Origin: Holosporaceae bacterium
GTDB lineage: Bacteria; Pseudomonadota; Alphaproteobacteria; UBA3830
Length of the DNA: 32,219 nt
Direction of reading: 5' to 3'
Assembly: GCA_031284365.1 (NCBI GenBank)
Contig: JAISZX010000066.1
Span: 1 to 32,219 of the forward strand
The notes under the pieces were generated by a model. It was not told where the DNA came from and ran no database searches. It saw nothing but the letters and a program-made list of their open reading frames with translations. The position numbers and the translations under genes are program-made. Each line of letters opens with the position of its first letter. The stretch's first letter is position 1. Shown here in pieces: positions 211 to 25,941 of this stretch.

Positions 211-3200
211 ATGGCGATATATAGCCTACATGTCGGTTTTGTAAGCAGGAGCAGCGGACGGAGCGCCGTACAATCTGCGGCTTACATTTGCGGAGAAAAT
301 TTGCACGAAGAGCGTCGCGACAAAATGGCAGATTATAGCAAGAAGGCCAAAAATGTGGCGTTTGTGGCTACGTTAGCTCCGGAGCAGAGCAGATATAAAG
401 GATTGGAAGTTTGGAACGCCGTTGAAAATTTCGAAGACAATTATGCAGATAAACATTTTAAAGACGAGAATGCCAGAATAAAATTTAAAAAATCTGCTCA
501 GACAGCCCAAACAGTCGTTGTGGCTCTTCCGAACGAATTTTCTCTAGCAACCAGCAAGGAATTGTTGGAAAAATTTATCAATACAAGATTTGTAAGTCGC
601 GGGTTAATCACGACTTATGCAATTCATAATTCTGAGGGAAATTCGCATGCGCATCTTCAAATTAGTCGGCGTGCAATTAATGAAAACGGCGATTTTTTGG
701 AGCGCAAAGATCGCGAAATTTGCACAAGAGCTGCTCTATTGGAAACGCGGAAACTATGGGCCGATATGACCAATGAATTTCTGGCTCGAGATGGGTTAAA
801 GGAGCGAATAACAGAAAAGAGTTTTGCGGATTTAGGAATTAATCTAGAGGCCACAAAGCATCGCGGCTGGTATGCGGACATTATTGGAACGGATAGCAGG
901 ATAGCGCAGGAAAATCTGGAAATCTCGAAAAGAAATGAAGAGAAAATTCTTATGGATCCGAGTATTATTTTGGATTATCTAAACGAAAAAAGCGCAGTAT
1001 TTAGCCAAAAGGATATTTTAAATGAAATTGGGAAAAGAGTCTTTGAAGGTAATAGGGTATCGGCGGTATTTGAGAAGGTTTTGGAGGAGGCGAAATACGT
1101 TGGAGAAAGCATCAACGGAGAGTTTTTGTATACGGGAGAGAGGTATCAGAAGCTGGAATCAGACGTGTTATCTAAATTTGATATTCTTGCATCGCAAGAG
1201 GCGAAAACAGTTTGCAGAAATGAGATAATTTTATCTGTTTTGGAAGAATACCCATATCTTAATAAAGAACAAAAAGTTGCTGTGGAAGGATTATGTGAAA
1301 ATGGTAATGTCGGCATTCTTCTGGGAAGGGCAGGGGCAGGCAAAACGACGACCATGAAAGCAGTGTCCGATATTTATAAAAACAGCGGGGCTCGAGTGAT
1401 AGGCATGAGTCTATCGGCGGTGGCCTCGGAAAATTTGGGCAGGGATGCGGCAATCGAAAGCGCAACGATAGCATCTTGGTCTCATAGATGGCGTTCCTAT
1501 GAGTTGGCGCAGGAGAGGTTTTTATCATTCGAAGCAGTGGTAACGGAGGGAATACTAAAGCAATTCGATTGGTATAACGATCTAAAAAGATATGAAAATT
1601 CTCAACTAAAATCCGGCGACGTAATTATAGTGGACGAAGCAGGAATGGTGGGCGCCAAGGATTGGAAGACGATACTGGACGCCGCCGAAAGGTTCGGAGC
1701 AAAGATAATAGCGGTAGGGGATGATAATCAATTCAAAGCGATTTCCGCCGGAGACTGCCTGAGGCAGTTCATAAATATGGATCGAGCAGAACTCAATGAT
1801 TCTACAACAATCGCCTCCGATGTCGACGAACTCCGGCAAAATGTATTCGAGCTTTCTGAAATTCATCGTCAACGTGAAAAATGGCAAAAGGAAGCGAGCG
1901 TTGAATTATCGAAGCTTAATGTGGGAGAAGCGCTGGCGAAATATGAAAATAACGGCCGGGTGCATACATGTGAAATTCCATCTTTCCCTGTGGCTAAAAA
2001 GTACTTAGAAATTGAAAAAATAGGATCGGCGGCTGTTTTGTGTTCCACCAATAGAGAGTGCACTACAATTAATGATGAAATCCGTTTTTTGAAGAAGGAG
2101 AAAGGAGAACTGGGGAAAGATTTTATAAAGATAAATGATAAAAACTTTGCTGAGAATGATAAGGTTATCTTTCAGGAAAATAATAAATTATTTGATGTGA
2201 AGAACGGGCAGGTTGGACTCGTAAAGTCGTTTTATGATGGAATCCTGTCTATAGAAACAGAATCAGGGACAAAAAACATCAATGTTTCAGAGTATGATAA
2301 AATAAATCATGGCTATGCGATAACGTTACATAAATCTCAGGGAAAAACTTTTGATAATACAATTGTAGTAGCCGGAAAGATGATGGATGCAAAAGCGATG
2401 TATGTGAGTATGACGAGGCATCGGGAAAATGTCGATTTATACTACAAAAAATCTGATTTTGGATCGTTCAGAGAGCTTGTAAACGCTGCGTCCAGATATG
2501 CCCATAAGGACTCTTTGGAGGATTATAGAAACATCGAAAATAAGAACAAAGCCAGAGTATTTGAATATAGGGAATTATTACTGGAAACTGCGTCTGTGCA
2601 GAGGGAAATAAATATCGGCGAAGCCGCATGGGAAGATTATTGGAAATTAAAAGAAAAGAGCAATACTCTTGGGAAAGAAATTTTGCAAAATTACGAGTCT
2701 TCGAAATTGTATTTGCATCAAATGGGAATCACAAAAGAGAAGCTAGAAATAGCAGTTGGCGTGAAGCTGCGACCGTTGAGCAACGTTGAGTTAGATGCAA
2801 AAAATACAGTTGAATTGTATGCAAAAACAGCCGGTGAAACGCGAACGTTATACAAAAAAATGAAAGCGGAAACCTTTAACATCAAAAATCATGTTTTATA
2901 CAAGCAATATTCGGAAATTCGCGATAATCGCAACGAATTCGCATCGAAAATTTTATCAAATTATCCGCTGCATCGGGAGTTTGTGAGAGAAATATCGAAA
3001 CAGTTCTTTATTTCCAGGAGAACTATGGAAAATCAGGTGAATTATGAAAAAAATGAGGCTGTTTTGAAAGAAATAGGAGCCATGAAGATAGCCCGCAATC
3101 CCTTCAGCAGACTTATACCAGCTACAGGAGAATTTATAAAGTCTGAGCAAAGCAATTCCCTCTATAAACTTTCACTGGAAGCCCACAGAAAAGTCGAAGG

Positions 3201-3690
3201 ATATGGCTTATATGTTAGCAGCGCCATGTTGGACAATTATGTGGGTTCAAAAGGCATAGAGATGGATACAAAAGAACAGATATACAAATATGCGAGCATA
3301 TTGGTTCAAAAAACTGTTGATGAACAAAATCTCAAAGCAGTATCTCCGGAATTGTTGGAATCTTGTATCAAACGAGCTATATGTTTTGAAGCATTAATGC
3401 AGGCTTCAGGGAAGAAAGAATTAACCCCCAAAATGGTAGACATTTTGCATAATAGGGCGCTGATATTGAGCGATAAATTAACGGACAATAATATTCGCGT
3501 GCTCAATGATAAGTCTCTTATGGAGCGAGCTAATTCAGCGATTCATGTGGAGAATGCATCTTCACTGTCGCCGGTTCAAAAAGAGCAAATTATCGATGCT
3601 CAAGTTCGAGAACTAAATCATGAGCGTCAGAGAGAAATATCCCAAATGAAAGAACTGGAAAAAAGTAAAAATTTTGAAATAGGTATGTGA
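211..3690 (+). CDS. traA: Conjugative relaxase-helicase, MobA/MobL N-terminal domain plus TraA (Ti-type) SF1 helicase
   Basis: 1159 aa; N-terminus MAIYSLHVGFVSRSSGRSAVQSAAYICGE is MobA/MobL-like; HUH-type motif NSHAHLQISRR; Walker A GRAGAGKTTTM; Walker B VIIVDEAGMVG; helicase motif HGYAITLHKSQGKTFD. Confidence 0.95.
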   Translation: MAIYSLHVGFVSRSSGRSAVQSAAYICGENLHEERRDKMADYSKKAKNVAFVATLAPEQSRYKGLEVWNAVENFEDNYADKHFKDENARIKFKKSAQTAQTVVVALPNEFSLATSKELLEKFINTRFVSRGLITTYAIHNSEGNSHAHLQISRRAINENGDFLERKDREICTRAALLETRKLWADMTNEFLARDGLKERITEKSFADLGINLEATKHRGWYADIIGTDSRIAQENLEISKRNEEKILMDPSIILDYLNEKSAVFSQKDILNEIGKRVFEGNRVSAVFEKVLEEAKYVGESINGEFLYTGERYQKLESDVLSKFDILASQEAKTVCRNEIILSVLEEYPYLNKEQKVAVEGLCENGNVGILLGRAGAGKTTTMKAVSDIYKNSGARVIGMSLSAVASENLGRDAAIESATIASWSHRWRSYELAQERFLSFEAVVTEGILKQFDWYNDLKRYENSQLKSGDVIIVDEAGMVGAKDWKTILDAAERFGAKIIAVGDDNQFKAISAGDCLRQFINMDRAELNDSTTIASDVDELRQNVFELSEIHRQREKWQKEASVELSKLNVGEALAKYENNGRVHTCEIPSFPVAKKYLEIEKIGSAAVLCSTNRECTTINDEIRFLKKEKGELGKDFIKINDKNFAENDKVIFQENNKLFDVKNGQVGLVKSFYDGILSIETESGTKNINVSEYDKINHGYAITLHKSQGKTFDNTIVVAGKMMDAKAMYVSMTRHRENVDLYYKKSDFGSFRELVNAASRYAHKDSLEDYRNIENKNKARVFEYRELLLETASVQREINIGEAAWEDYWKLKEKSNTLGKEILQNYESSKLYLHQMGITKEKLEIAVGVKLRPLSNVELDAKNTVELYAKTAGETRTLYKKMKAETFNIKNHVLYKQYSEIRDNRNEFASKILSNYPLHREFVREISKQFFISRRTMENQVNYEKNEAVLKEIGAMKIARNPFSRLIPATGEFIKSEQSNSLYKLSLEAHRKVEGYGLYVSSAMLDNYVGSKGIEMDTKEQIYKYASILVQKTVDEQNLKAVSPELLESCIKRAICFEALMQASGKKELTPKMVDILHNRALILSDKLTDNNIRVLNDKSLMERANSAIHVENASSLSPVQKEQIIDAQVRELNHERQREISQMKELEKSKNFEIGM

Positions 3691-3703: not shown

Positions 3704-4525
3704 TTACAGAGATTTTATTTCAGAAATCGCTAACCCTGTAATTTCTGAAATTTCACGCAACTCCATATTTCTTGCCAGTAATTTTTGAGCGATTTTTTTC
3801 TTTTCATTTGTTTCACCTTCTTCTCTAGCGATGGTGAGTTCGCTATTATGGTCACTGATGGTTCTCTGGCGAAGATCGGCTATGGCACGGACTTCATCAT
3901 CGGCACTGATGTATTTTAGCGTCTCCATTGCTTCCTTTATTTCTTCTATTTCCAAGAACATCTCGTCAATAAAAATCGGATTTTTCAAAAAAGAAAGCCA
4001 GGCGGTGAGGAGATCGCGCCGATCGGCTTTTTTCGGATCGAAGCGCGGTAACTCCACAAAAAATATCCTCGCCTTATCGGTCATAATCTGATATGGATCG
4101 GGATCGCTCGGCTGAAACGTCATGTAGACTTCACTTATGGCGTTTTGGCGATCTGTCACGTTCTCCCCAAGTATCCAGACTCCGATGACGTTCGGTCCGT
4201 TGTAGGATTTTCCCTTCTTTACGGCTCTGGGCATCATGTTGGCCAGATAATGGAAGGCCCGCTGAGGGATCTCGCCGGTGTTGCGTACCTGAATTTCAAT
4301 ATCTAGTTTTGTGCCATTGTCGGTGGTGGCCTTCACGTCTAGACGGCTGGCCTTGTCCCTTTCTAGAATCCTCTCGATTTCGGTATTTTCTAACTGTAGG
4401 TCATTGATATATGGATTGTTTTTGAACAGAGAATTTAAAAGCGAGATTAACAGCGGTTTGTTCTTCTCCACACCGAAGATATTTTTAAATATGTAATCTA
4501 ATTTCGGGTCTAGTAGGTCTATCAT
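3704..4525 (-). CDS. Rpn/PD-(D/E)XK nuclease family transposase-like protein
   Basis: 273 aa; MIDLLDPKLDYIFKNIFG start, LDIEIQVRNTGEIPQRAFHYLANM core, and C-terminal IAQKLLARNMELREISEITGLAISEIKSL tail typical of the family. Confidence 0.9.
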   Translation of the reverse strand: MIDLLDPKLDYIFKNIFGVEKNKPLLISLLNSLFKNNPYINDLQLENTEIERILERDKASRLDVKATTDNGTKLDIEIQVRNTGEIPQRAFHYLANMMPRAVKKGKSYNGPNVIGVWILGENVTDRQNAISEVYMTFQPSDPDPYQIMTDKARIFFVELPRFDPKKADRRDLLTAWLSFLKNPIFIDEMFLEIEEIKEAMETLKYISADDEVRAIADLRQRTISDHNSELTIAREEGETNEKKKIAQKLLARNMELREISEITGLAISEIKSL

Positions 4526-4601: not shown

Positions 4602-7310
4602 TCAGCGCAGCAAAACATCTTCCACATTATGTGGTTTAAAAAGGCGGTTACCTGAGCTAATATGCGTTACCGTTTCTCCAAATGACTGGACTAATTGTTG
4701 GGCATTGTTTGTTTCGGAAAGCAGTAGCTTATTGCAGTCGGATAATTCACGAGAATTTTCAAAGAAGTGATTGATTATTATGGTATTTGAAGCGTGCTGT
4801 ATCAATTTCTTCCCCATAACGATTTTAATGGTTTCAGGAGTAATTATTTTCTCCATAAATGGCGTTAGCGCCTGCAGATGAACATCGCCTCCGCAGGATA
4901 ACCAAAGTACGGATTTATTCGATCCATAATATTCAGAAAAAGAGAATTCTTTTCTTTTCGAAATCAGCGCCTTAAAGCAGTGGAGCTCTTTTGCTATTCG
5001 GCTGCGGATTTTGATAAAAGTATCCTCATTATCTTCGATATTAACGAATGGCATCAATATAGATTTGATCTGTTTGAATGGAGCAAAACACAGTATTTGA
5101 AAGAATTCCTTTGTATTAATATCAAGACCAATGAGATATGCTATCAAATCCTCAATTTCTGCACATTCTGTTTTGATATTTTTAGCGAATCCCGAGATAT
5201 TTTGGCTATGGCGCAAATCTCCGAGGAAATCCCAAGATAAGCCGTTTTTTCTCAGAGGATTTATCAAAATATCGTCTTTTTCTGCCAAATGTTCGAAAAG
5301 AAAGTCTCCCTCTTCGAAGACTATGCCCTTTCGTTTACTGATCCTCATATCCGTCAATAATTGCCCCACGGTTTGGTTTATGGAGTCATCATTTCCCCAT
5401 ATATAGAAGGGCCTTTCGAATACAACTTCTGAGAAGTTCATGCCGGATAATTTTAGATAATCACCAAAAAATTTTGAGTATTTCTCACTAAATGTACTCA
5501 AGTCCAAAAGACGAACGGAGGTCGCCATATCTTGTTGGCATGGTTTTTGGTGGCCGTGCTCATGTAGTTTAAATTTCGTTTTAGCGACTACAGCTATTCC
5601 CGAGAATTTGATGAATGCCTCACCTGGGGTAAGATTCATGATTTCAGCATAGGGCACTGTTTGCTTTTTCTCGGTTTTTTGAGCGATATTAACTCCATCT
5701 CTCATGGTGTTTGCGCCGTAGGAAATGGCTTCCGACGCGGACACTTCTTCCTTCTCTCCGAGGAAGCTGCTCATATATTTAGCGGTATCCGGTTCGGGTA
5801 TGCCCATGACGATTTTAGTTCCACAAAGCCCTGTGATTGTTCTTGCAACTTCGTGGCCATAAATCCTATTCAATTGGGATATCATTTGGGTTCCAATAAC
5901 AAAGCAACCTCCGTATTTTCTGATTTCCGCCAATGACGTTTCTATTCTCGGCAGTCTATTCAGATTATGAAGCTCGTCGATGAAGAACCAGCAACGTGAC
6001 AAACGTGACGTTTGATCCGATATTTGCTTGGTACCAAATTTCAGTATTTTTGATCCAATCGCCTCCGTTGTCGGCGAATCTTGGCAGCAATTTTCCTGTC
6101 TCATCAGTGATTCAGTGGCGATCGATAACCAAGCAGTGATCAAAGGAGTCAATGATGCTCTTTCCACAGGTCTACATGATAGAAACAAAAGGCCATTTTT
6201 ATCCGAAGCAATCCATTTTCGAATGCTGAAATTTCCGTCAGAGGACTCCTTCAGAATATCAAAAACCGAAATGGCGTTAATGAGCATGGCGCGAACGGAA
6301 ATGGCCATTTTATCGGCTCTTTCGTCCATCAAACCATGGCCATATGTTCCCTCCAGATAATTTTGCATCTCCTTGAGGGATACTTTGAGCAATAGATTCA
6401 GAAACTCGTCAGTAGATTTTCCTTCCTTGATAGCTTTTTTAGCGGTTTCTTGGAAGACAATTTTAGCTGCTTCTTCCCAGAATTTATCTTGGCTATTTTC
6501 GCCGTTTCCGATAAGACAGGCGGCGACGTTTTTCAGTAAAATTTCGTCCTGACATTCGTTCAGAAAACTCCAGGAAATGGAGCGACCATCCAGTGGATTT
6601 AATATGATATCTCGACTTTCATCATAATATTTGTTCAAGTACGTGCCTACGGTATCAACAATGACGATCTTCTCGTTTTTGGTCGCAATCTGATCCAGAA
6701 GCTCAATCATGACGTTTGTTTTGCCGGAGCCTGTTGTGCCGGTAAGAATCGTGTGTCGGCATTCGGTTCCCTTGGGATAGGGGATATCCGCCAATATAAT
6801 GTCGCTTTTGTGTCTGATATATTTCCTGATTTTTGTTCCTTTCACATACTCATGTCCGGAAATCAGTTCTTTGCCGTCGCTGAGAGATTTGCCAAAATAT
6901 TTGTTGAAAAGCACCATGAGAAGCATGGCGGCAATGCTGATGCATGTGCTGAGCTTGAGAGCAAAGCTCAATGAGTCTTCAAAGCTAGCTTTGAAAAACA
7001 AACAAGGTTCGCCCGTGGCAATGACATAATCCGATACCTCTTTCCATTTACCGCTTCCAAATTTGAAATATGAGTGACTGAACAGGGTGGATGGAAGCGT
7101 CGTCATGTTGCTTCTATAGGTTGCTTTCAGGCAAACGAAATAGTTCCATATGCTGCTCGAGTTCCATTTGTTTATGAGATAGAAAAGGAAGCTCCCAAGA
7201 AAGCTCAGTCGCCCCACAAGCCAGATGACGTTCCAGTTTTGCATCATCATGCGCACACGATGCGCCAGCACCTGTCCGCCAATGGTGCTATGGTCTGAAT
7301 ATCTACTCAC
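4602..7310 (-). CDS. traD: Type IV coupling protein TraD (F-type) with an extra C-terminal domain
   Basis: 902 aa; N-terminal membrane segments, Walker A LTGTTGSGKTNVMIELLDQ, Walker B WFFIDELHNL, GTQMISQLNRIYG. Confidence 0.93.
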   Translation of the reverse strand: MSRYSDHSTIGGQVLAHRVRMMMQNWNVIWLVGRLSFLGSFLFYLINKWNSSSIWNYFVCLKATYRSNMTTLPSTLFSHSYFKFGSGKWKEVSDYVIATGEPCLFFKASFEDSLSFALKLSTCISIAAMLLMVLFNKYFGKSLSDGKELISGHEYVKGTKIRKYIRHKSDIILADIPYPKGTECRHTILTGTTGSGKTNVMIELLDQIATKNEKIVIVDTVGTYLNKYYDESRDIILNPLDGRSISWSFLNECQDEILLKNVAACLIGNGENSQDKFWEEAAKIVFQETAKKAIKEGKSTDEFLNLLLKVSLKEMQNYLEGTYGHGLMDERADKMAISVRAMLINAISVFDILKESSDGNFSIRKWIASDKNGLLFLSCRPVERASLTPLITAWLSIATESLMRQENCCQDSPTTEAIGSKILKFGTKQISDQTSRLSRCWFFIDELHNLNRLPRIETSLAEIRKYGGCFVIGTQMISQLNRIYGHEVARTITGLCGTKIVMGIPEPDTAKYMSSFLGEKEEVSASEAISYGANTMRDGVNIAQKTEKKQTVPYAEIMNLTPGEAFIKFSGIAVVAKTKFKLHEHGHQKPCQQDMATSVRLLDLSTFSEKYSKFFGDYLKLSGMNFSEVVFERPFYIWGNDDSINQTVGQLLTDMRISKRKGIVFEEGDFLFEHLAEKDDILINPLRKNGLSWDFLGDLRHSQNISGFAKNIKTECAEIEDLIAYLIGLDINTKEFFQILCFAPFKQIKSILMPFVNIEDNEDTFIKIRSRIAKELHCFKALISKRKEFSFSEYYGSNKSVLWLSCGGDVHLQALTPFMEKIITPETIKIVMGKKLIQHASNTIIINHFFENSRELSDCNKLLLSETNNAQQLVQSFGETVTHISSGNRLFKPHNVEDVLLR

Positions 7311-7456: not shown

Positions 7457-8122
7457 TTACAATTGTTCCGCAATTTTTTGTTGCTCCTCTTGCCGATACC
7501 TTTCTTGATAAAAGAGGATTTCATCAGAAAATTGCTTGGTTACATAGGATAAAGCTGTGATAAATTCCATGTGAGGTTCAACTAGCGCTATCTCTATATT
7601 TTTGCTTACATATAAAGCGGTGTTGTCTCCTACAGATGGGATATCTGAACTTGCAACTGTGTATTTTTTAGATAATTCTGAATGTAACTGTGAAAATCTT
7701 TTGCCACCACAATGCATCAGAAATCGTATTACTAAGCCTTTCTGATCTAAAATTAATTCAACTTTTTTTACGGGCAAACTCTCAGAAGAAAAATCATCTG
7801 CATTTAAATATAAGACTTTATATTTTTTATTGTAGATACTATCTTCCTTAATTACCTCAAACCTATCTCTAATCTCTTCTTCAGTTGTATTTTCTATCTC
7901 TATTCCATACGGAGCGGGATTGCCGATGCTCGGTCTCGGAACGATAGGTTTCTTTTTCGGGAGGATGGGTTTCTTTTGTTGCAATTCAATTGCTTGCTTC
8001 TGTTTTTGTCGTCGCTCCAAAGCGTTCCTGTCCTGATAATAGCTATAACCATATTTTCCGAGCAAAATCACCACGCAAGCGATCGCGCTTGCTAAGTATA
8101 TGCGTTTGTCTTTCTTATCCAT
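7457..8122 (-). CDS. Hypothetical single-pass membrane protein with Lys/Pro-rich linker
   Basis: 221 aa; one N-terminal hydrophobic helix (IYLASAIACVVILLGKYGYSYY), then KKPILPKKKPIVPRP linker and soluble domain; ends directly upstream of traD. Confidence 0.7.
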   Translation of the reverse strand: MDKKDKRIYLASAIACVVILLGKYGYSYYQDRNALERRQKQKQAIELQQKKPILPKKKPIVPRPSIGNPAPYGIEIENTTEEEIRDRFEVIKEDSIYNKKYKVLYLNADDFSSESLPVKKVELILDQKGLVIRFLMHCGGKRFSQLHSELSKKYTVASSDIPSVGDNTALYVSKNIEIALVEPHMEFITALSYVTKQFSDEILFYQERYRQEEQQKIAEQL

Positions 8123-8123: not shown

Positions 8124-9368
8124 TTATTTTCCTTTCTCTAAAAGTTCTTGGATTTTATTTAGCGAGTCGCCAAGATCTTTTTGTTTGACGGTATCTATGG
8201 ACTCGCATCCTTTAGCCACACTTTTTTCTCGACGCAATTGGTCAACGACGGTTTTCAGCCGCTGCGCAAACGTTATTAATTGATGCAACTCTAGAGAATC
8301 AAAAAAGCTAATACGCAGTGTGCAGGAGGGCAATTTATCCTCCGGATCGATGGCTGCCATCACATTTGATCGCTCCTGACCGGTGCAGGAACAACCGGCG
8401 GCAAAGGAATATTCCTTTAGGCGTTCCATAATGTCCGTCAGCAGAACTCCGGCAATTGAAACAGACACAATGTGGGACGGACTGGACGAATTTATGTGAA
8501 TATTTCCGATTTTCGTCAGTTCTGTTGTTAGTACGTTGAAATTTCGCGCTATTTTTGCGGTATCGAATTTGAAATTTTGCACGGCGGCGGCAAAAGCGGC
8601 GATCAATTCCGTCGCTTTTGAGCCTGGGAAAAATTCGTCGCCGGAGCCGAATAGAATCGGCTGCAATCTTGATGGATCGCGTATGTACAGCGCTCCAATG
8701 CCTTTGGGGGAGCCGATTTTGTGGCCGGCCATGGTCAGTAGATCAATATGCAAAGCCTCAATGTCGATGTCGTACTTGCAAAAAGCCTGGGCAGCGTCCG
8801 TGTGAAACAGAATTTTGTGCTGTCGAGCGATTTCTCCTATGGCTTTCACGTTCTGCAAAGTTCCAATTTCGCTGTTGAGCATCTGGATGGAGATTAATTT
8901 CGTGTTTTTTCGAATACTTTTGCGCAACTGTTCCAAATCCACGTTCCCATGGCGATCTACATTCAGGTAGGTGACCTTGTATCTCCGCGTCTCCAGATGC
9001 TTGAAGACATTCAGCACGCTTTTGTGCTCGATCTTCGACGTAATCAAATGGCATCCAGGATTTCCCTGGGCTACTCCGAGAATAGCGATGTTATTGGCTG
9101 TCGTCGCGCTGCTGCAAAAATGTATCTGATCGGGCTTTGCATTTATCTTTCCCGCAACAATCTTCGCAGCCCTTTCTTCGATTTCCTTCAGGTGTTTCGC
9201 ATGAACATTCAGACCAGAAGAATTGCCGTCCAGCTGTGCAACCTTTACAAATTCCTCCAACGCTCCTCTGCTCGCTGCATAAGAAGCGGCGTAGTCCAGA
9301 TAAATTACTTCGTTTCCACCTGCTAACGCAGGAATCATCAAGAAAGATAATACAAGAAGTTTCTTCAT
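8124..9368 (-). CDS. Cysteine desulfurase (class V aminotransferase, NifS/IscS-like) with putative N-terminal signal peptide
   Basis: 414 aa; IYLDYAAS, SAATTANNIAI, HTDAAQAF, PLP-lysine motif AGHKIGSPKGIGALY, Cys loop AAGCSCTGQERS; N-terminus MKKLLVLSFLMIPALAGG is signal-peptide-like. Confidence 0.93.
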   Translation of the reverse strand: MKKLLVLSFLMIPALAGGNEVIYLDYAASYAASRGALEEFVKVAQLDGNSSGLNVHAKHLKEIEERAAKIVAGKINAKPDQIHFCSSATTANNIAILGVAQGNPGCHLITSKIEHKSVLNVFKHLETRRYKVTYLNVDRHGNVDLEQLRKSIRKNTKLISIQMLNSEIGTLQNVKAIGEIARQHKILFHTDAAQAFCKYDIDIEALHIDLLTMAGHKIGSPKGIGALYIRDPSRLQPILFGSGDEFFPGSKATELIAAFAAAVQNFKFDTAKIARNFNVLTTELTKIGNIHINSSSPSHIVSVSIAGVLLTDIMERLKEYSFAAGCSCTGQERSNVMAAIDPEDKLPSCTLRISFFDSLELHQLITFAQRLKTVVDQLRREKSVAKGCESIDTVKQKDLGDSLNKIQELLEKGK

Positions 9369-11237: not shown

Positions 11238-14057
11238 TTAGTCATCTCCCCAAGAAAATGTATTTATCGTCTTATCCACAACAGCATGCGCCGCTCCTTT
11301 CCCAGCTCTTTCCTTTTCTTTTTGTCTAATTTTGCGTGCTTGATTTTTTATTTCCATTTTTTCTTGGGAGATATTGGATTTAGTGTTTTGCAACTTGTCG
11401 CTGACGACGACTTTGATTGCGCGTTGATCGCCTTGTAGCTTTTCTTTTTTAGCCTTTCTATCGTCATCCATTTTATCGATGTTGGTTCGCGTCTGTTGTT
11501 CTTGTTGTTTATATTCTGGCCTGAAGTCACTTTCCGCCTGCTTTCGATTATAATCGCCCCAGCCTGGCTGCTTCATTTGCGGCATCGTCGGCCTCATTCT
11601 TACGGTTTCTCTGCTTTTCGCCTCCATGAGCCAGCCTTGCGCTTGCTCTTTATCAGATGCACTGCTGGAATCAATCATTTGGGAGGCTTCAGACTTGGTG
11701 TATCCTCTTTCTGTGGCTATTTCCAACGCATGATCCCGTAGATTACTCCTCTCACTGATGGTCAGGCTGCTCGCTCTGTTGTAGCTTTCCTGGTAACTTT
11801 TCGCCATGTGTTCGTTGTAGGCCTTATCCTGACTGTACTGACTCATTTTCGAAAGCGTATCCGTATGATCTCTCGCCAACTGCGCTACCTCGTCGTTTCT
11901 GCTGGATGCCGCTATGTCCTGCATATAGGAATCAAATCTCTTCTGGGTTTCAGCAATATCGTGAGATGTGGACGCCTGGCTGGAATCGCCGTAATTCGTG
12001 GTGTTGCTGGACTCTACTCCTCCATTCATGCCGATTCCGACTTGTCCAGCGACTGAACCGCTTACAGATACCTTGCTCTTCTTGCTGCCTGCGCCTTTAG
12101 AAAGGTCGATATGACCACCTGCATTTGCTCCAAAAGCTAAGTTTCCTCCGGCTTTAGTCCCATCAGCGTAGGCATGCCCGTTGTAATACTGATCCAATAT
12201 CTTTGCATCATTGTGTATCTGCTGAGCTTTATCCGCCCCCATGTTGTATTTGCTAGAGATATCCTGGGCCGACATGCTGCTGAAACTATGGGCCAACCGA
12301 GATGTTTCACTGTGGGAAGCGCTCTTGCTCTGAGAGTATTTTACCGTGGCGTCATAGGCTCTCTGCATCGAATCGCCGTAGCCCTTGCGAAATTCCTCCG
12401 TATCTGTACTGGTGGCTGAAAAGTCTCTGACTCCGCTGCTTACGGCATGACTTATGGTGGAGAATCCACTGGCGTCGTTGATAATTTGTACTCCTCCGGT
12501 ATCAAGTCTATGTCCTCCGGCCGACAGGGAACTGGAGAAACTCCTCTGTAATTGGGAAAGATTGTCCAACTGCTGGTTTCTCATGCTGACATTGCCGAAC
12601 GAGAAATTACCGGAAGATACTTCCGCGGCAGCAGAGCTAGCAGCTTGCATCGAGGTGCCTGTCATCTGACCTGCAAGATGTACAAACGTCCCCACTCCCT
12701 TCACTATGGCTATGCAGATAAATGGTATACTCATGGATAAATATCCAGCCAGGAGTTTTATTTCTGCATTAGCCTCCGACACTCCTATGTAATTGGCTAT
12801 GGTTAATCCTCCGGCAGTACCAAGTTCGGATAAAGTGGACGCCCTTGCTGCTATGTTCATAATATAGTTAAGAATGGCGTACATTGGAGGCCAGGCCTGT
12901 AGCCAAATTAAAATCGCAACCCAATTCATGAAAAATTTATAGCCGCTTGGAACCATACAAAGCGGTATTATGAAGATAAAACAGGCATAGGCCAGCGCTT
13001 CTATAACCGCTTTCATTATTGGCAGCAACTTTGTAGCCAGTCGTCCGACCGTATCAAATGTGCTACTCTGTTGTTGCAGAGCCCTTGTCTCCGCATAGGT
13101 AATGGCGTTACCGGCCAATTTGCAGTTTTCGGACGCTGCGTCTCCTATGGCATTGATCATCAAGGCCTGCTTCAGGCTGTTTTCTGCATTTTCTGCTATA
13201 TCTCCAAGATATGAGGTGATATTTTGCAGATTTGCTTTGATCTCGGCCTTTAGGGCAGTCTCCAAACTCGAGTTCATCATCAATTTAGGAGAGTTACTTC
13301 CGGAATTGGCGATGAATCTTCCGGTGAAAAACTTCCTTCCCAGAAGAGAAAACGATCTGTCCAGTTCCGCAGCCCAGGCCTGATTGAATTTCTCCGCGGC
13401 TTCTTCACATGTGACGTAGACAGCCATGCCTTTACCCGTTATTGGTATCCAGAATATTCCTCTGTTTTTGGATGGATTGCTGGTTATCAGTCCCCATAAA
13501 TCGTTTGTATTTCTTAGGTCATCGAAACTGTACTTTTGGTTCAACATGATGTCGTATTTCACGCATTGACCGACGAAATTGCGCATGTTTTCCTTGAAAT
13601 TTTGATTTGTGATCCTAAAGGTTTTGGCTTTTTCCAGAATATCAGAGCCAAACATCATGCCGTTTTTCTGATATTTCATATCATCCGGAGTGGAGAAGCT
13701 TTGCTCTACGATTTCCGTAAGCACTTTCCCCAGCTTGCTGGTTTGGGACGCAAAAAGAGCTAATCCATAGGGCACATGATCGATTTTATAGGCATATCTT
13801 GTGATGGCGTCCTTTATCCATACGGTGCTGGTGGGAAGAAACAGCATATTGGTCATGAGCAGCACCGGCATACCCCAGGTTTTCAGAATTTGCATGGGAT
13901 TGCCATACAAAATCATGTAATAAACCATAAACGCACCAACAAGACCTCCGATCCTCAGCATGGCCGTCAGCGTCCCGCTGCCTCCGTTCAAACACATGGC
14001 AACGGCTTTTATTACCTCATATACAATCTCGCCTCCTCCTATGGTGTATAGGTCCAC
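11238..14057 (-). CDS. traG: Conjugal transfer mating-pair stabilisation protein TraG (F-type)
   Basis: 939 aa; N-terminal multi-TM TraG_N-like region, long Ser/Ala-rich soluble C-terminus; follows traH as in F-type operons. Start codon appears to be GTG. Confidence 0.92.
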   Translation of the reverse strand: MDLYTIGGGEIVYEVIKAVAMCLNGGSGTLTAMLRIGGLVGAFMVYYMILYGNPMQILKTWGMPVLLMTNMLFLPTSTVWIKDAITRYAYKIDHVPYGLALFASQTSKLGKVLTEIVEQSFSTPDDMKYQKNGMMFGSDILEKAKTFRITNQNFKENMRNFVGQCVKYDIMLNQKYSFDDLRNTNDLWGLITSNPSKNRGIFWIPITGKGMAVYVTCEEAAEKFNQAWAAELDRSFSLLGRKFFTGRFIANSGSNSPKLMMNSSLETALKAEIKANLQNITSYLGDIAENAENSLKQALMINAIGDAASENCKLAGNAITYAETRALQQQSSTFDTVGRLATKLLPIMKAVIEALAYACFIFIIPLCMVPSGYKFFMNWVAILIWLQAWPPMYAILNYIMNIAARASTLSELGTAGGLTIANYIGVSEANAEIKLLAGYLSMSIPFICIAIVKGVGTFVHLAGQMTGTSMQAASSAAAEVSSGNFSFGNVSMRNQQLDNLSQLQRSFSSSLSAGGHRLDTGGVQIINDASGFSTISHAVSSGVRDFSATSTDTEEFRKGYGDSMQRAYDATVKYSQSKSASHSETSRLAHSFSSMSAQDISSKYNMGADKAQQIHNDAKILDQYYNGHAYADGTKAGGNLAFGANAGGHIDLSKGAGSKKSKVSVSGSVAGQVGIGMNGGVESSNTTNYGDSSQASTSHDIAETQKRFDSYMQDIAASSRNDEVAQLARDHTDTLSKMSQYSQDKAYNEHMAKSYQESYNRASSLTISERSNLRDHALEIATERGYTKSEASQMIDSSSASDKEQAQGWLMEAKSRETVRMRPTMPQMKQPGWGDYNRKQAESDFRPEYKQQEQQTRTNIDKMDDDRKAKKEKLQGDQRAIKVVVSDKLQNTKSNISQEKMEIKNQARKIRQKEKERAGKGAAHAVVDKTINTFSWGDD

Positions 14058-14063
14058 GTTATT

Positions 14064-15263
14064 TTATTCCTCTAATTCTTCTTTCCCAGGCTTTGTCATC
14101 ATTGCCTCTGATGGTAGACCATTTCCTAAAAACTGCAGCCAATTTTCCTTGTTTATGATGGTTAAATCTGAAACCCCGTAGGTTTCTTCGAAAATCTTCG
14201 GCAATTTGGCTCTTTTATTAGGGCTGTACTTAAATTCGTACGTTTTTAATCTTCCGTCCTCTTCCTCGATAAAATCAATCTCCCCACCATCGTAATTTCT
14301 CCAAAAATACCTACGACATCTTCTTCCTTCCCGCTGAGCCTTTTTCATGAGCTCAACAACGCAAAAATTTTCCCATATGCCTCCGACATCGTTTCGAAGA
14401 TCCATGCTTTGGTAAATACCAAGCAGTGCGTTTCTTATTCCAACATCATAGAAAAAGATTTTTCTTGTTCGATTCCCAGCAATTTCATTTCTGAGGTTTC
14501 TAGAAAAAGCCGGCAGCGCGAATATCACATAACATTTCTCCAGAAGATCAACATACTTCTTTACGGTATTTGCATTAATCTCGAGTCTCTTTGATAATTC
14601 ATTGAAAGAAACTTCCGAACCTATCTGCAAAGCCAAACACTGAAGTAATTTCAGGATTTGATCAGAGCGCCTTACATTCTCAAACACAAGTATATCTTTG
14701 TATAAATAACCGTTAACTAGATTTTCCAATTCGTCTCTGGCTTCATCTTCCGTCATTCCATGAATACATGGATACATTCCCAATCTCAGAAAATTATCTA
14801 AACTAGCATCTGCTATAAACGCTCCCTGGACGTCCTTTAATTCGTTTACAGAGAAAGGGTACAAGATAAACGAGCGACTTCTTCCGACAAGCGGCTCTCC
14901 AGTTTTATTAGCTAAATCAAAGCTGGACGAACCGGTTGCTATAACTTGAATCTCAGGAAAAACATCGTGAATTATCTTCAATGTCCGACCTATGTTGATG
15001 ACATTCTGTGCTTCGTCGATGGCAATTATGTCGAAACCGTCAACATACTGCTTCAAAAGCTGTTCGTTGGTTGTTTCAAGAGCCTGTTTTACACTCAATA
15101 GGTCGCAGTTCAAGTATACACATCTTTTTCCTAATGACTCATTTTCAGCAATAATTTGCCGAAGAAGTGTAGTCTTACCGACTCTTCGGGTACCAAAAAT
15201 CAAAATAACTCTATCTTGAAAGAGAGAGCCATTAATTTTACTAAATATATCACGTTTAATCAT
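14064..15263 (-). CDS. AAA ATPase with DUF4143 C-terminal domain
   Basis: 399 aa; VILIFGTRRVGKTTLLRQII Walker A, IIAIDEAQNV Walker B, VIATGSSSFDLANKTGEPLVGRSRSF, C-terminal NYDGGEIDFIEEEDGRLKTYEFKYS. Confidence 0.92.
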   Translation of the reverse strand: MIKRDIFSKINGSLFQDRVILIFGTRRVGKTTLLRQIIAENESLGKRCVYLNCDLLSVKQALETTNEQLLKQYVDGFDIIAIDEAQNVINIGRTLKIIHDVFPEIQVIATGSSSFDLANKTGEPLVGRSRSFILYPFSVNELKDVQGAFIADASLDNFLRLGMYPCIHGMTEDEARDELENLVNGYLYKDILVFENVRRSDQILKLLQCLALQIGSEVSFNELSKRLEINANTVKKYVDLLEKCYVIFALPAFSRNLRNEIAGNRTRKIFFYDVGIRNALLGIYQSMDLRNDVGGIWENFCVVELMKKAQREGRRCRRYFWRNYDGGEIDFIEEEDGRLKTYEFKYSPNKRAKLPKIFEETYGVSDLTIINKENWLQFLGNGLPSEAMMTKPGKEELEE

Positions 15264-15347
15264 GTTATTCGGCCTAATATCCTCAGCAAACTTATTGTAT
15301 TCAGTATATTGATAAAAGCAACTTCTATATTATCCATCGTGCATACA

Positions 15348-15572
15348 CTACCTAACAGCCTTAGGAATCGATTCAGGCCGGGCGTTGCCCTCCCATTTTT
15401 TAACGAATCCTATTTCTAAAAAAGTAAGGAGTACTTTCGCGGCAAAGGCTCCTGTAAAACCTCCGATCCTCAGCATCGCCGTCAGCGTCCCGCTGCCTCC
15501 GTTCAAACACAATGCAACTGCCTTCAGGACCTCATAGACAATCTCCCCTCCTCCTATGGTGTATAGGTCCAT
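15348..15572 (-). pseudogene. Truncated duplicate of the traG 5' end fused to unrelated sequence
   Basis: MDLYTIGGGEIVYEVLKAVALCLNGGSGTLTAMLRIGG matches the TraG N-terminus; 15459-15571 aligns without gaps to 13944-14056 with about 10 mismatches by eye. Confidence 0.88.
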
Positions 15573-15575
15573 CAA

Positions 15576-15956
15576 TTACTCCAAACTTACCTCTAGACCT
15601 TCTTTGTGAGCGACATCAATTAGCTGTTTATCAAACGTAGCGATCGGGCATTTGTATTTTTTAGCCAACAGTAGATACGATGCGTCGTAGGCCGTTAACC
15701 CCGTTTCCACAGCGTATAGAAACAGCTTCATCGGATCGGATCGATGTCTTTCAATACCGAGGGCATCAACAGCGGCGAAACAATTCTTGACGGCACCAGT
15801 AGATAAAGCCTGGCGTTTGGCCGTTTTCCACATAACATTCGCAAACTCGTAATCAAATAAATCTGTTGTGATAAATCTTTTGTCATCATCGAAAAAGTTC
15901 ATTGATAACTCTTGTCTCACAAACTTTACGACAAACGACGTGTCCAGTACTACCAT
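15576..15956 (-). CDS. PIN-domain VapC-like toxin
   Basis: 126 aa; MVVLDTSFVVKFV, FEYEFANVMWK-like core, GLTAYDASYLLLAKKYKCPIATFDKQL. Confidence 0.88.
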   Translation of the reverse strand: MVVLDTSFVVKFVRQELSMNFFDDDKRFITTDLFDYEFANVMWKTAKRQALSTGAVKNCFAAVDALGIERHRSDPMKLFLYAVETGLTAYDASYLLLAKKYKCPIATFDKQLIDVAHKEGLEVSLE

Positions 15957-16177
15957 TTTCTACCCTCATTTTTGAAGGCCGTCATCTCCTCAAACCCAAG
16001 ATTCAACTTCGGACAGTTAGCTAAAGATGCCTTGATTTTTGCAGCTCTGTTACGGCGTACTTTTTTGATGATATACGCTTCCCGGCCTTCGAATGTCACC
16101 GTCAACTCTTCTTCGTCCTTGAGACGTGGAAGAAGCTTGAACATTTCTTTGCGCAATTTAGTTAAAGATATCTGCAT
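15950..16177 (-). CDS. Type II antitoxin (Phd/VapB-like)
   Basis: 75 aa; MQISLTKLRKEMFKLLPRLKDEEELTVTFEGREAYIIKKV; overlaps the PIN toxin start. Confidence 0.75.
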   Translation of the reverse strand: MQISLTKLRKEMFKLLPRLKDEEELTVTFEGREAYIIKKVRRNRAAKIKASLANCPKLNLGFEEMTAFKNEGRKW

Positions 16178-16242
16178 ATTTACTCCGTTATTACTTCAAT
16201 ACATCCTTATGATACTATATGCACGTACATATGTCAAGCTTT

Positions 16243-17598
16243 TCATCGCACCTCCCGTCCCTTTTGCAGAGTTTCGAAGGTATTTTCGAGTTTTTTCTCG
16301 TAGATTTTGGTGCTTTCGATCATGATAAGCATTTGGTTCATCTGTTCGTAGGCCATCTTGCGCTTTCTGTTGATGGTCGCCTTGGCCTCCTGCAACTGAG
16401 AGAGAAATTTGTTGACTTCTTCGTCCGACACCTGGGCATTTTTGAGATTTGCCGTTTCCTCCAGCATTACGTCCAAAATCTCGGAAATATACTGATGTAT
16501 GAGATCAACGCAAATAATGTCTGTGAAGTCTCTTAAATCAAACTCCGATCTTTTGTAGGTGGTTAGCACGTTCACCATCTTGTATATGGGAAGACGCACT
16601 TTTCCGATGAACTCTATCTCGTTCTTGGTCAGCGGCTGATCGTTGATGGCTTTTTGGGTGATGTCCGAGAGCGTTTTTCTAACTCTATTGGCGAATCCTC
16701 CGGAAGCAATATTAAAATCCTTCGCTTGAACCCTGAGACATTTTCCAGTTTCATCACAGCCGTATCCGGACACATTCCCGCCTTCGAGCAAAGCTTTTAT
16801 CAGATCGTCGGTTACTTTACTTGGGTATCTGACTACTCTTCGATTTCCAGATTCCTGGAAGGAAACAATCGTGCCGGAGACGGTCATGCACAGATACCCC
16901 AGCTCCGGGTCCGAGGCCAGGTAACCATTGCGTTTAATAACTTCCCAGGCCACGTTAAATTCCTCTGCAAGAATGTCTTTGTATTCTGCTTCGCTGCTTT
17001 TTCCAGCAAGCACTCTGGAGCGATTACTTCCGGCTCCACATTCGTGTTTGGCCGCCACCCAGCCCTTAAACATGCCGCTCTTGCTGCCCATGGATGTGCA
17101 TATGTGCCGACTTGCGACATCAGACTTTGGCCATGCTCCTCCCACCAGAGTGGCCGCCATCTCGCAGGAGTTCATGCTGGCCTGATTGATTTTAGAAGCC
17201 ATATCCTGCAGCTCCGCCATCACCGATTGCACCGCAGGAGCAAATGTCTTCATGGCCAGCATAAAGCCGTAGCTGACAGCGCTGGAGCCTATGCTTTTCA
17301 TTGCGTCCACCAACTGCGCGCTGTTTACAAAGGAAAATCCTCCGGTAAACATATCTATGCCTCCGCAGCCGGCGTTGACATTAGGTAGCTGCAGCGTCGC
17401 CACTTGAGAATTCCTTGCCCTATTCCTGACGCTTAGCCCGCCTCCGTTGTAATATCCCGCAGATTGATCATGATGGACTCCAGGAGACGTGGAATTTGTC
17501 ACTGCTCCAAATTTTTTGAAAAACTCTTCCAGATCTGCGCCCACTCCGCAGTAGACATTCTGGAATAACAAAGAAAAAATCAGTAGTTCTTTTCTCAT
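16243..17598 (-). CDS. traH: Conjugal transfer pilus assembly protein TraH
   Basis: 451 aa; GCGGIDMFTGGFSFVNSAQLVDAMKSIGSSAVSYGFMLAMKTFAPAV is characteristic of TraH. Confidence 0.95.
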   Translation of the reverse strand: MRKELLIFSLLFQNVYCGVGADLEEFFKKFGAVTNSTSPGVHHDQSAGYYNGGGLSVRNRARNSQVATLQLPNVNAGCGGIDMFTGGFSFVNSAQLVDAMKSIGSSAVSYGFMLAMKTFAPAVQSVMAELQDMASKINQASMNSCEMAATLVGGAWPKSDVASRHICTSMGSKSGMFKGWVAAKHECGAGSNRSRVLAGKSSEAEYKDILAEEFNVAWEVIKRNGYLASDPELGYLCMTVSGTIVSFQESGNRRVVRYPSKVTDDLIKALLEGGNVSGYGCDETGKCLRVQAKDFNIASGGFANRVRKTLSDITQKAINDQPLTKNEIEFIGKVRLPIYKMVNVLTTYKRSEFDLRDFTDIICVDLIHQYISEILDVMLEETANLKNAQVSDEEVNKFLSQLQEAKATINRKRKMAYEQMNQMLIMIESTKIYEKKLENTFETLQKGREVR

Positions 17599-18431
17599 TG
17601 CAATTCTCCGTCACCCATGATTGAGACAATCCTTTCCTCCATCTCCTGAATGGATATCATTCCAATTGCCACTGGTATTACGTGCCCTGATTTGGGATTT
17701 ACGGCGAACAGCGATGGATATGTGTTCACTCCCCAGGTTTCCGCTAGACCGTTGTCTCGAACGCTCCTCTCGAACAACTCATGCGTTTCACCAAATTCAC
17801 TGATGGCCAGCACGTCCCAGTCGTATTTTTCGCTAAATCCTTTAACCACAGGAGCAAATGCATCGCAGTAGGGACAATTATTCTTGAAAAAGAAGAACAA
17901 TCCATATTTTTGGGACAATTCATGGATTTTTTCTTCCGCCAGTCTCTTTTGTTCCGCCAAATAGATATGTCGAGCATTCTGGGACATGGGAGATTCCTGC
18001 GTATAATCTATGTCCGGAGTCTTGTATACGTTTTGCATCCAGACTTTTGCGAATTCTCCGGATTTTTGTATTATCTCGTATTGCATTTTTTGATAATTGA
18101 ACACGTTTTGAGAAGTGGGATACATCACGGCCGCCGCTTTGGCCTCCTCCAATTGTGCTTGATATAGTTTTAGCTCCTCTGTGGCAGGATATTGAGCAGA
18201 AATAGAAGAATCTTTAGACTCCTGGTTGGTATTAAAATCATCGGGTTGAGCCTCAGGCTCATACCAGTGCCAGCCTCTGGCGTGATCATCATAGAAGGAT
18301 TTTCCGTCCTCGGCATTGGATAAACCAGTTAAAAATAGAAAAATTATCAAACAGTTAACCATTAATTTCACTTTTCTAAATGCCGCCCGAGCGGCATAAT
18401 TCCATTCATCGCCTGTACTGCAAGTACTCAT
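17595..18431 (-). CDS. traF: Conjugal transfer pilus assembly protein TraF, thioredoxin-fold with CPYC
   Basis: 278 aa; FFFFKNNCPYCDAFAPVVKGFSEKY, WGVNTYPSLFAVNP. Start at 18431 has GGAGG upstream and ATGA overlap with traN; an alternative start is 18362 (MVNCLIIFLFLTGLSNA). Confidence 0.93.
   Translation of the reverse strand: MSTCSTGDEWNYAARAAFRKVKLMVNCLIIFLFLTGLSNAEDGKSFYDDHARGWHWYEPEAQPDDFNTNQESKDSSISAQYPATEELKLYQAQLEEAKAAAVMYPTSQNVFNYQKMQYEIIQKSGEFAKVWMQNVYKTPDIDYTQESPMSQNARHIYLAEQKRLAEEKIHELSQKYGLFFFFKNNCPYCDAFAPVVKGFSEKYDWDVLAISEFGETHELFERSVRDNGLAETWGVNTYPSLFAVNPKSGHVIPVAIGMISIQEMEERIVSIMGDGELQ
18375..18414 (-). repeat. Hairpin repeat copy A (TGCCGC-CCGA-GCGGCA core)
   Basis: Shares about 40 bp with copies B and C; lies at the traF 5' end. 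Confidence 0.7.
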
Positions 18432-20341
18432 TTGCCGCCTCCAACTTTCAGAGAACCGGTCAGATGTCTCATGTTTTCTTTAAGGTAAGCCGCTTCAGAT
18501 GCTCCAGAGCGCCGCCTGGGCGGCGTAACGTCATTAACCGCCAGTGGCGCAGCCACCATCTGCTCCCTAATGCGATCTAGTTCTCCTTCCCTTGCAAAGT
18601 GTTCTCCGCCCTGAGGCTTAAACTTGCCCATAATATCGTTGGTAATTTCTGTTAAATCTAATCTCGAAAAGTCGATCCGGCTCAGCTGTTCTGGAGTAAA
18701 TCCTCCGCAGCTAGGGTGTTCTGAGTCTCCAAAGTTCATGCCCAATTGCGGCTTTCCCTGCTCCTGCAAAAGTTTTGCGAACTTCGTTCCAAAGCAACAG
18801 AATACTGATTTTTTTCTCAGGCAGAATTTCGTAAATCCCACATTTATCTCTTCTGCACAATGGGTTCCGACATATATGCATTTCCCTTCTTCACGGAGTT
18901 TTGCCAGAGTTTTAGCGTCCTCGTCGCATCTTGTGAGGCCAAGACTCACACCCAGCCCCTTTCCGTTGCCACAACAATCTTTGATGCCAACTCCTATTCT
19001 GATTTTATTGCAGGAGCGATCTTGTCCCTTGAATATATTGATATTCGCCGTACCGTCCATCTCTTTTCTCGCCTCTTCCAGAATCGAAAGGTATCCCAAA
19101 GCCTGAATCATATCTTTGTCGGATTCGTAACTGGAATCGATGCAGTCTCCTCCCAAACAAAACGGATTTTTCTTAGAAAATTTATGTTTAGCCACCACAA
19201 CTCTATCTCTACATTTAAACTTCCATCTCCAGCGCAAACATTTGCCATCTTTTTCTTCCAGACATTCCGGATCAGGCTGCCGAGAGTACCCTCTGGCTTT
19301 CAGATCTGTGCAGGTATCTTTGCAGGACGATCTACAGCCAAAGGTCATGGTTCTACCCCAGGAGCCATTCACCTTTTTTCCTTTCCAGAACTTCTCCGAA
19401 GGCGGATCGTCCTCAAATGATTCGTAGCGACACAATCCCTGGTCGCACAATTCTTCATAGTGTTTGTAGGCGTCGTCTGGAATCCAATAATGCTCTCCGG
19501 TGTCATTCACAACCCGATGATGGAGATAGGCGTTTCCTATTTCTCCCCAGGGGATGTATTCATCGCTGGCTCCTCCCAGAAGCTTGGTTATCAGCGTCGC
19601 AGCACTTACTACGTGATTTTGTAATGCCGGCACCAAATAACAACTTGGGTGTATCCAGGGATGACCGTTTTGCTGTATGGTTTTCCTCAAAATCACATTT
19701 ACTCCGTTTACTCGATAGGTTTCGTCCACATAAGCTCCTCCCCAGGAAACTGTGCTTATATGGGTAATGTCGTTAAATACTCCATCTTCCCGAAATATCT
19801 CTTCTGGTTCGTCAACTATTTCCACTTTGATGGTCAAATATCCGTGATTCCCACAATTCTGACCCGCCGTTATATATGGAGGAGTCTGAAGATACACGTA
19901 CCTCTTCTTGATCATTCTTGCTTTTACAAAATACTCTTCGTCCGGACATTCTTCGCAGGTTTCAATGGTGTAGTCATCGCTCCCTTCTTCCACAGATTCC
20001 GTTTCTTCAAAAGCCCGCTCCGGATGTTGGTGTATTTCTTCAGATCGAGTCATAAACGGTTCGGTATCGTCCAATATGTAAGGCTTACGAGTTTTGTGAA
20101 TGTTCCGCAAATCCCTGCCGTGTTCTGTTTGTTCCAAATGTTCGAATGATTTAGATAATTCGGTCCTGTTGATAAAAACTCCATCTCGATATTGAGGTAC
20201 ATGAGTCTTGTGGGCTCCGGATTTTATTTCACCCTCTATGTCGTTTTTGCTGGATTCGGCCACCCGTTTCCCATGCTCAAACGAATCCCTCACGGCTTCT
20301 GCTTTGAAGAACGATAAAAACATCAGTAATGTCATTATCAT
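18428..20341 (-). CDS. traN: Conjugal transfer mating-pair stabilisation protein TraN
   Basis: 637 aa, Cys-rich (CCGNGKGLGVSLGLTRCDEDAK, YVGTHCAEEINVGFTKFCLRKKSVFCCFGTKFAKLLQEQGKPQLG, PSCGGFTPEQLSRIDFSRLDLTE), signature TraN motifs. Confidence 0.95.
   Translation of the reverse strand: MIMTLLMFLSFFKAEAVRDSFEHGKRVAESSKNDIEGEIKSGAHKTHVPQYRDGVFINRTELSKSFEHLEQTEHGRDLRNIHKTRKPYILDDTEPFMTRSEEIHQHPERAFEETESVEEGSDDYTIETCEECPDEEYFVKARMIKKRYVYLQTPPYITAGQNCGNHGYLTIKVEIVDEPEEIFREDGVFNDITHISTVSWGGAYVDETYRVNGVNVILRKTIQQNGHPWIHPSCYLVPALQNHVVSAATLITKLLGGASDEYIPWGEIGNAYLHHRVVNDTGEHYWIPDDAYKHYEELCDQGLCRYESFEDDPPSEKFWKGKKVNGSWGRTMTFGCRSSCKDTCTDLKARGYSRQPDPECLEEKDGKCLRWRWKFKCRDRVVVAKHKFSKKNPFCLGGDCIDSSYESDKDMIQALGYLSILEEARKEMDGTANINIFKGQDRSCNKIRIGVGIKDCCGNGKGLGVSLGLTRCDEDAKTLAKLREEGKCIYVGTHCAEEINVGFTKFCLRKKSVFCCFGTKFAKLLQEQGKPQLGMNFGDSEHPSCGGFTPEQLSRIDFSRLDLTEITNDIMGKFKPQGGEHFAREGELDRIREQMVAAPLAVNDVTPPRRRSGASEAAYLKENMRHLTGSLKVGGGK
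18505..18543 (-). repeat. Hairpin repeat copy B (CGCCGC-CTGG-GCGGCG core) within traN 3' coding region
   Basis: Alignable with copies A and C; encodes AVNDVTPPRRRSGA of TraN. Confidence 0.65.
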
Positions 20342-20892
20342 TGCCCCTCCAGAAGCTTGGAATGTGCAAATTCCAATGTCACATTGCCGGACAATCTGTT
20401 GATTTCTACGCCGTTTTTTATCAACACAAATGTGGGAACTTTTTTGATGTTGTATTGCCTGAACAAATCTGGATGAATCTGAAGCTGTAGCCCTTTCGGA
20501 TTAATCTCCAGTATCTTGTTCTTAGTTTTCAAAAAAGAATCTTCGTGAATACCTCTAAGCACAAGTGTTGCGTTATACTTTTGGGATTGATCGCCTAGCT
20601 CCATCAATGACGCTTTTGGCATCGAAAATGACACAAACACGATGATGCCGTTTTCTAAAGTTGCTTCTTTGTTCGGAATATTCTGAATTCCAGAGCCGCA
20701 ATCTTTGCAGCCATCTTCAGTGGCAGGAAGCTCGCCAGTTATGAACTCTAACTCTTTCGCCATGTTATAAACTTTCTCAAGATTGAGTCTTTGCTGTTTC
20801 GCGAATTTTACGTCCTCAGAAGTTCGATCCTGAGCTGCGGAAAAATCAAATGCCACAATAATCAGAAGGACTCCTCCTATAAAAGGCAGCAT
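20338..20892 (-). CDS. trbC: Type-F conjugative transfer protein TrbC
   Basis: Thioredoxin-like IIVFVSFSMPKASLMELGDQSQKYNATLVLRG ... NIKKVPTFVLIKNG. Likely start is 20892 (MLPFIGGVLLIIVAFDFSAAQ signal peptide), not the track's 21078, which overlaps traU deeply. Confidence 0.92.
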   Translation of the reverse strand: MLPFIGGVLLIIVAFDFSAAQDRTSEDVKFAKQQRLNLEKVYNMAKELEFITGELPATEDGCKDCGSGIQNIPNKEATLENGIIVFVSFSMPKASLMELGDQSQKYNATLVLRGIHEDSFLKTKNKILEINPKGLQLQIHPDLFRQYNIKKVPTFVLIKNGVEINRLSGNVTLEFAHSKLLEGQ

Positions 20893-21851: not shown

Positions 21852-21864
21852 GCGATATTTTCCA

Positions 21865-22500: not shown

Positions 22501-22527
22501 TAGCTTTTCTCAATTATTACCTTCGTG

Positions 22528-25937: not shown

Positions 25938-25941
25938 CTCC

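Follow-up and report, generated by a model that had tools for sequence, protein, structure and literature searches.

The traD gene of the window (the whole stretch of 32,219 nucleotides of DNA that was analysed) encodes an F-type coupling ATPase with intact catalytic motifs; further along the same chain comes a second coupling-protein module, which lacks these motifs. This second module (module 2) is present wherever traD was found in the family and is kept under purifying selection, and the anatomy of TraD, in which the motor module (module 1) carries a dead twin, is near certain. The twin probably descends from a tandem duplication of the whole traD gene and was later fused to it, the direction of the steps being inferred; from analogy with other secretion ATPases, it was probably kept as a docking or assembly part.

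Layout of TraD and its element

The window as a whole belongs to an F-type conjugation cluster that is almost complete and includes a TraA relaxase. Its relevant features are listed below with the evidence in brackets; L041, L042 and L043 are loci of related genomes.

211-3690, forward strand: traA relaxase/helicase of the same element (TIGR02768 TraA_Ti, E=2e-139)
4602-7310, reverse strand: traD, coding for a 902-aa F-type coupling protein with two modules in tandem, GTG start (ORF, NCBIfam and Pfam matches)
6831-7310, reverse strand: N-terminal membrane domain, residues 1-160, with TM segments 28-46 and 116-134 and a periplasmic loop between them (hydropathy; AlphaFold2 helices)
5562-6815, reverse strand: module 1, residues 166-583, canonical NBD and AAD with intact catalytic motifs (TrwB_AAD_bind 171-577, TraG-D_C 440-561; Walker A and B)
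6717-6740, reverse strand: Walker A of module 1, GTTGSGKT, residues 191-198 (sequence)
5973-5990, reverse strand: Walker B of module 1, WFFIDE, residues 441-446 (WFFIDEL, 441-447) (sequence)
5502-5561, reverse strand: linker, residues 584-603 (the place of two TM segments in L042 and L043, and of a stop codon and new gene start in L041)
4845-5501, reverse strand: module 2, residues 604-822, degenerate first half of the NBD, AAD-like helices and the next strand; the proven homologous part (BLASTP, Pfam, hhalign, fold)
5370-5399, reverse strand: WGNDDSINQT, residues 638-647, where module 2 has lost its Walker A (hhalign alignment)
5004-5006, reverse strand: Arg769 of module 2, in IRSRIA (aligns with Arg340 of module 1)
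4605-4844, reverse strand: C-terminal fifth, residues 823-902, where the Walker B half has been lost; homology could not be demonstrated (shuffle test)
11238-28542, reverse strand: F-type T4SS genes traG, traH, traF, traN, trbC, traU, traW, signal peptidase, traC, traV-like, traB, traK and traE (NCBIfam matches)

The whole protein matches both TIGR02759 TraD_Ftype (E=1.8e-125) and TrwB_AAD_bind (E=7.4e-128). Despite the former E-value it reaches only 419.9 bits, over three stretches, and misses the equivalog cut-off (521), so that it counts as a divergent TraD, whose assignment rests on homology and on its place in the tra cluster instead of that threshold. Module 1 is a putative hexameric DNA-dependent ATPase.

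Homology and predicted fold of the second module

An earlier note on this DNA had read positions 4602-5417 (TraD residues ~632-902) as a second, degenerate ATPase domain in place of the usual short tail. Homology to the T4CP ATPase core is borne out by three comparisons. Specifically, residues 601-902 align to residues 1-600 with 24% identity over 213 aa (BLASTP, E=4e-7), with a Smith-Waterman score of 103, where 1000 shuffles average 37.6 and peak at 67; the last 302 aa by themselves match Pfam TrwB_AAD_bind (E=3.4e-12); and hhalign joins the family profiles of the two modules with a probability of 98.4% (E=5.9e-15, 200 columns). Module 2 of the relatives matches TrwB_AAD_bind as well, four of them at 6e-10 to 1e-12 and L040 at 2e-7, while the more divergent modules of L042 and L043 gave no TrwB_AAD_bind match in the same HMM test. 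Arg769 is the sole invariant residue across nine module-2 sequences, and its counterpart in module 1, Arg340, is likewise invariant.

The proven homologous stretch covers residues ~604-822, which shifts the range of ~632-890 given before: the similarity begins sooner, at ~604-616 (YLKLSGMNFSEVVFERP versus DIILADIPYPKGTECRH), and for residues 823-902 homology is not demonstrable. Similarly, the first three of the four segment pairs that had been aligned by eye lie on the hhalign path, but the fourth (TNNAQQLV...; TNNAQQLVQSFGETV versus TQMISQLNRIYGHEV) is not significant alone, as the C-terminal slice scores 9.6 where column shuffles reach 12.5, and is consistent only in its order and predicted secondary structure.

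Fold prediction agrees with the profile searches, with modest model confidence. When the AlphaFold2 model of module 2 alone (pLDDT 59.5 and pTM 0.56, a moderate confidence) was compared with the PDB by Foldseek, the top 33 matches were all TrwB chains (best E=4.8e-6, probability 1.00), at a TM-score to TrwB of only ~0.37. In the full-length model (pTM 0.38) strands and helices follow one another in module 2 as they do in module 1; residues ~604-830 mostly have a pLDDT of 65-89, and residues 849-902 are unreliable. Module 2 is thus modelled as a RecA-like NBD fold with an AAD, and since HMMs also find TrwB and TraD in this region, the check that had been proposed for it came out in favour of a coupling-protein fold. 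These RecA-like HMM and fold matches rule out an ordinary acidic disordered tail and set the C-terminus apart from that of the usual TraD.

The loss of Walker A and Walker B from the second copy, also pointed out before, extends to the relatives: Walker A, Walker B (DE-like) and GTQ are absent from all eight module-2 copies and present in all eight module-1 copies. Module 2 is accordingly judged, by its sequence, to be dead as an ATPase. Elsewhere, one genome (G182) carries two copies of a TraD of ordinary length (L049 and L057), both with the Walker A variant GTIGAGKG, which lacks the usual T/S after the lysine.

Distribution of the tandem layout

A search for the same layout in other TraD proteins, suggested by the earlier note, found it again in five other MAGs of one Holosporaceae-like family, with fused proteins of 899-946 aa (L038, L039, L040, L042 and L043); in a sixth MAG (L041) the second unit is a separate, adjoining gene. 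Within a sample of 50 genomes of the order, every genome with a traD match (8/8) also carries module 2; some genomes hold nothing but fragments (G018, G048 and G035), and wherever module 2 is complete, in seven loci, the open frame is intact. Those matches that bear a name are MAGs of Holosporaceae or alphaproteobacteria, one of them labelled water-buffalo rumen; isolate codes suggest a termite-gut origin for others.

In wider samples the layout was not seen. No tandem was found among 387 alphaproteobacterial genomes, where the matches were all of ordinary TraD length, nor, beyond the window's own genome, among 399 genomes of the phylum, where one further weak match was obtained (G703, E=5.7e-9, 787-aa frame). 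Plasmids likewise yielded no tandem, and no plasmid TraD match spans 80% of the query. In the scans of contigs the single protein gave no matches, and the alignment gave them.

All of these sequences come from MAGs, and the assembly that holds the window has 6.7% contamination, so that two genes joined by an assembly error or a frameshift have to be considered. The same fusion occurs, however, in six family members, counting the window's own genome; four of the six lie outside the window's genus, and the MAGs come from several projects. This recurrence rules out an artefact, to which we attach a practically negligible probability. As a separate observation, the window's own assembly holds another copy (L002, positions 1-756; contig G000:C123), in which a module 2 of a different type (type B, see below) is cut off by the contig end; it therefore belongs to a second, different tandem traD, of this genome or of a contaminant.

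Selection on the second module and its possible exchange between lineages

The catalytic motifs of module 2 are gone, its sequence diverges fast and three genomes retain fragments only, all of which would be expected of an inactivated traD duplicate that became fused when a stop codon was lost and is now decaying without function. Against such a relic stand (i) the open frame in every complete locus and the presence of the module with every traD of the family, (ii) its length, which is conserved even where identity drops to ~22%, and (iii) its substitution pattern. More specifically, the comparison of G046 with G044 (dS ~1.2) gives a dN/dS of 0.126 for module 2 and 0.041 for module 1, so the twin is constrained, albeit less than the motor. 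Neutral decay is disfavoured by this ratio (0.13 when rounded), and the relic, largely refuted by purifying selection, is left as a very improbable explanation. Within module 2, mean identity is 27.6% in the AAD-like part and 33.2% in the NBD half.

Two unlike types of module 2 can be told apart: type A in the window, G031, G023, G046 and G044, and type B in G029, G037 and the second copy of the window's assembly (L002), to which G018 is added by alignment. Both types occur on related TraDs: between the window and G029, identity is ~69% in module 1 but ~22% in module 2, with the fall at the module boundary. Module-2 data reject the grouping of the window, G031 and G029 that module 1 supports (p=4e-7), and module-1 data reject the pairing of G029 with G037 (p=0.002), although they do not firmly reject that of the window with G031 (p=0.067), a pair that the relaxase tree also recovers. 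An exchange of module 2 between TraD lineages would be a fair reading of these seven sequences, chiefly of G029; the relaxase tree does not decide. No co-variation of the relaxase, or of its C-terminus, with the type of module 2 emerged from the comparison.

Probable origin by duplication and fusion

The earlier note had attributed the second copy to a duplication within the gene, and here the related loci point elsewhere. In L041 a TAA stop closes module 1 and a new 463-aa gene starts at once; the product of this gene matches TIGR02759 TraD_Ftype in one stretch (residues 19-238 to profile positions 24-247) that includes the membrane domain, from TM1 onwards. In L042 and L043 two hydrophobic, predicted TM segments separate the modules. 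Module 2 therefore has a membrane domain of its own in L041 and a TM pair in L042 and L043, and has neither in the window and L038-L040. A single internal duplication of the ATPase domain is disfavoured by the TraD-type membrane domain of the second L041 gene, and a whole-gene duplication fits the split gene and the TM pair better.

The split, partly fused and fully fused relatives suggest the following course: the whole of traD would have been duplicated in tandem, the ATPase motifs of the twin would have been lost early, the twin would then have been joined to traD in most lineages, and its membrane anchor would have been lost in several of them.

Possible functions of the second module

In the proposed mechanism module 1 would burn ATP and pump, while module 2, held beside it and retaining the front half of the T4CP fold together with the all-alpha region, would dock the relaxosome of the element or another substrate. 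Two lines of evidence favour such a docking module. First, the AAD of coupling proteins points into the cytoplasm and is the part that recognises the relaxosome, and the C-terminus of F TraD binds TraM (PMC7434980); in type VII secretion, ATPase3 of EccC serves as the receptor for substrates and has a hypervariable pocket (PMC6986878, PMC6954902). Second, a role in specificity accounts better than a purely structural one for the fast divergence of module 2 and for the presence of two dissimilar types on related TraDs. Against docking weigh the lower mean identity of the AAD-like part compared with the NBD half of module 2, the small number of sequences behind the exchange reading, the lack of visible co-variation with the relaxase and the low confidence of the structure models. 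Taken as a whole, the statement that module 1 pumps with ATP and that module 2 is a non-catalytic docking platform derived from a duplicated traD is about as likely to be right as wrong. A bolder version, in which the exchangeable pseudo-ATPase twin would be a cassette for substrate or relaxosome recognition, the T4SS counterpart of the receptor/motor tandem of EccC, reached through traD duplication and repeated fusion, is more tentative and somewhat doubtful.

An alternative is that module 2 sits beside module 1 in the membrane, in pairs of a catalytic and a non-catalytic unit, and stabilises or gates the TraD hexamer. In L041 (split) and in L042 and L043 (fused), module 2 is anchored in the membrane next to TraD, which is in line with such a mixed ring, as is a reported model in which F TraD forms dimers and then trimers of dimers (PMC7434980). 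Yet the Walker B half and the arginine-finger helix region of module 2 are gone or unrecognisable, which may have cost it the ring interface; the membrane anchor is missing from the window's form; and rapid divergence would be unusual for a ring interface. This role is possible but on balance unlikely.

Alternatively, module 2 could be a built-in inhibitor that binds module 1 and keeps TraD inactive until substrate comes, as CagZ does with Cag-beta, whose AAD it embraces, trapping the monomer (PMC9886983); the ATPase domains of EccC are also auto-inhibited, through linker contacts (PMC6954902). CagZ has no known fold kinship to module 2, however, and with two unlike types on related TraDs each would have to co-evolve with its module 1, which makes inhibition a rather improbable role. 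If instead the twin sets the choice of substrate, as the docking proposal has it, this would explain how specificity changes among close elements while the motor stays unchanged.

Comparison with known coupling proteins

Module 1 and the membrane domain match F-type TraD (TIGR02759) and VirD4-type T4CPs in sequence, motifs and neighbourhood, but the window's TraD adds a degenerate T4CP module of ~300 aa, whereas VirD4-type proteins have 500-750 aa and at most a variable acidic CTD (PMC7434980). The best structural match of module 2, and its closest sequence match in the PDB, is TrwB of R388 (PDB 1e9r, 1gki), which has one active NBD where module 2 lacks any catalytic motif. FtsK-type T4CPs do have an additional ATP-binding domain, but no AAD, and the classes of T4CP in the same review include no VirD4-type protein with a degenerate second T4CP module (PMC7434980).

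Other systems share single traits. EccC and EssC of type VII secretion, with tandem FtsK/HerA-type ATPase domains, likewise carry several related ATPase domains on a single chain, after an N-terminal membrane part, and the distal domain of EccC is the substrate receptor (PMC6954902), from which substrate binding by module 2 could be argued by analogy. They belong, however, to another branch of the family and another secretion system, and ATPase3 of EccC keeps a conserved nucleotide-binding site that module 2 does not. In IncHI plasmids the coupling ATPase TraG has an adjacent partner, TraJ, and the Legionella DotL complex has a C-terminal docking part, the DotL tail with IcmSW (PMC7434980); but TraJ is a multi-TM protein of ~200 aa and the DotL tail an acidic extension, and neither has been described as a degenerate T4CP copy. 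CagZ likewise is a non-catalytic partner that binds a T4CP and controls its oligomeric state (PMC9886983), but it is a small protein in its own right, for which no T4CP ancestry has been reported.

In the open-access literature, no paper was found that describes a tandem or pseudo-T4CP module. A conserved dead twin would be a new architecture relative to the published T4CP classes consulted, which have one motor module and at most a variable C-terminal tail. Moreover, the twin exists in related bacteria in a split, a membrane-anchored and a soluble version, and the family thereby provides a natural way of asking what else, besides ATP hydrolysis, a coupling protein requires.

Genes in the neighbourhood of traD

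An Rpn-family PD-(D/E)XK nuclease/transposase gene lies between traD and the relaxase gene (3704-4525, reverse strand). On the other side, position 7457-8122 of the window holds a 221-aa ORF with no family match; in L031 (3268-3900) and L032 (7283-7903) this place adjoining traD is taken by an unrelated, Fic-like ORF with the motif HPFREGNGR (73% mutual identity). Because of this replacement, no constant partner gene beside traD was found in the comparison of the window with these two loci. A cysteine desulfurase-like gene (IscS/NifS/DndA family) adjoins traD within the tra cluster (8124-9368, reverse strand), and two other genomes have look-alike ORFs next to traD (L031, 3959-5305; L032, 8006-9319). 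Finally, the interval between traG and traH in the tra cluster holds a gene for an AAA-type protein with weak matches to DnaA, Hda and RecA (14064-15263, reverse strand).
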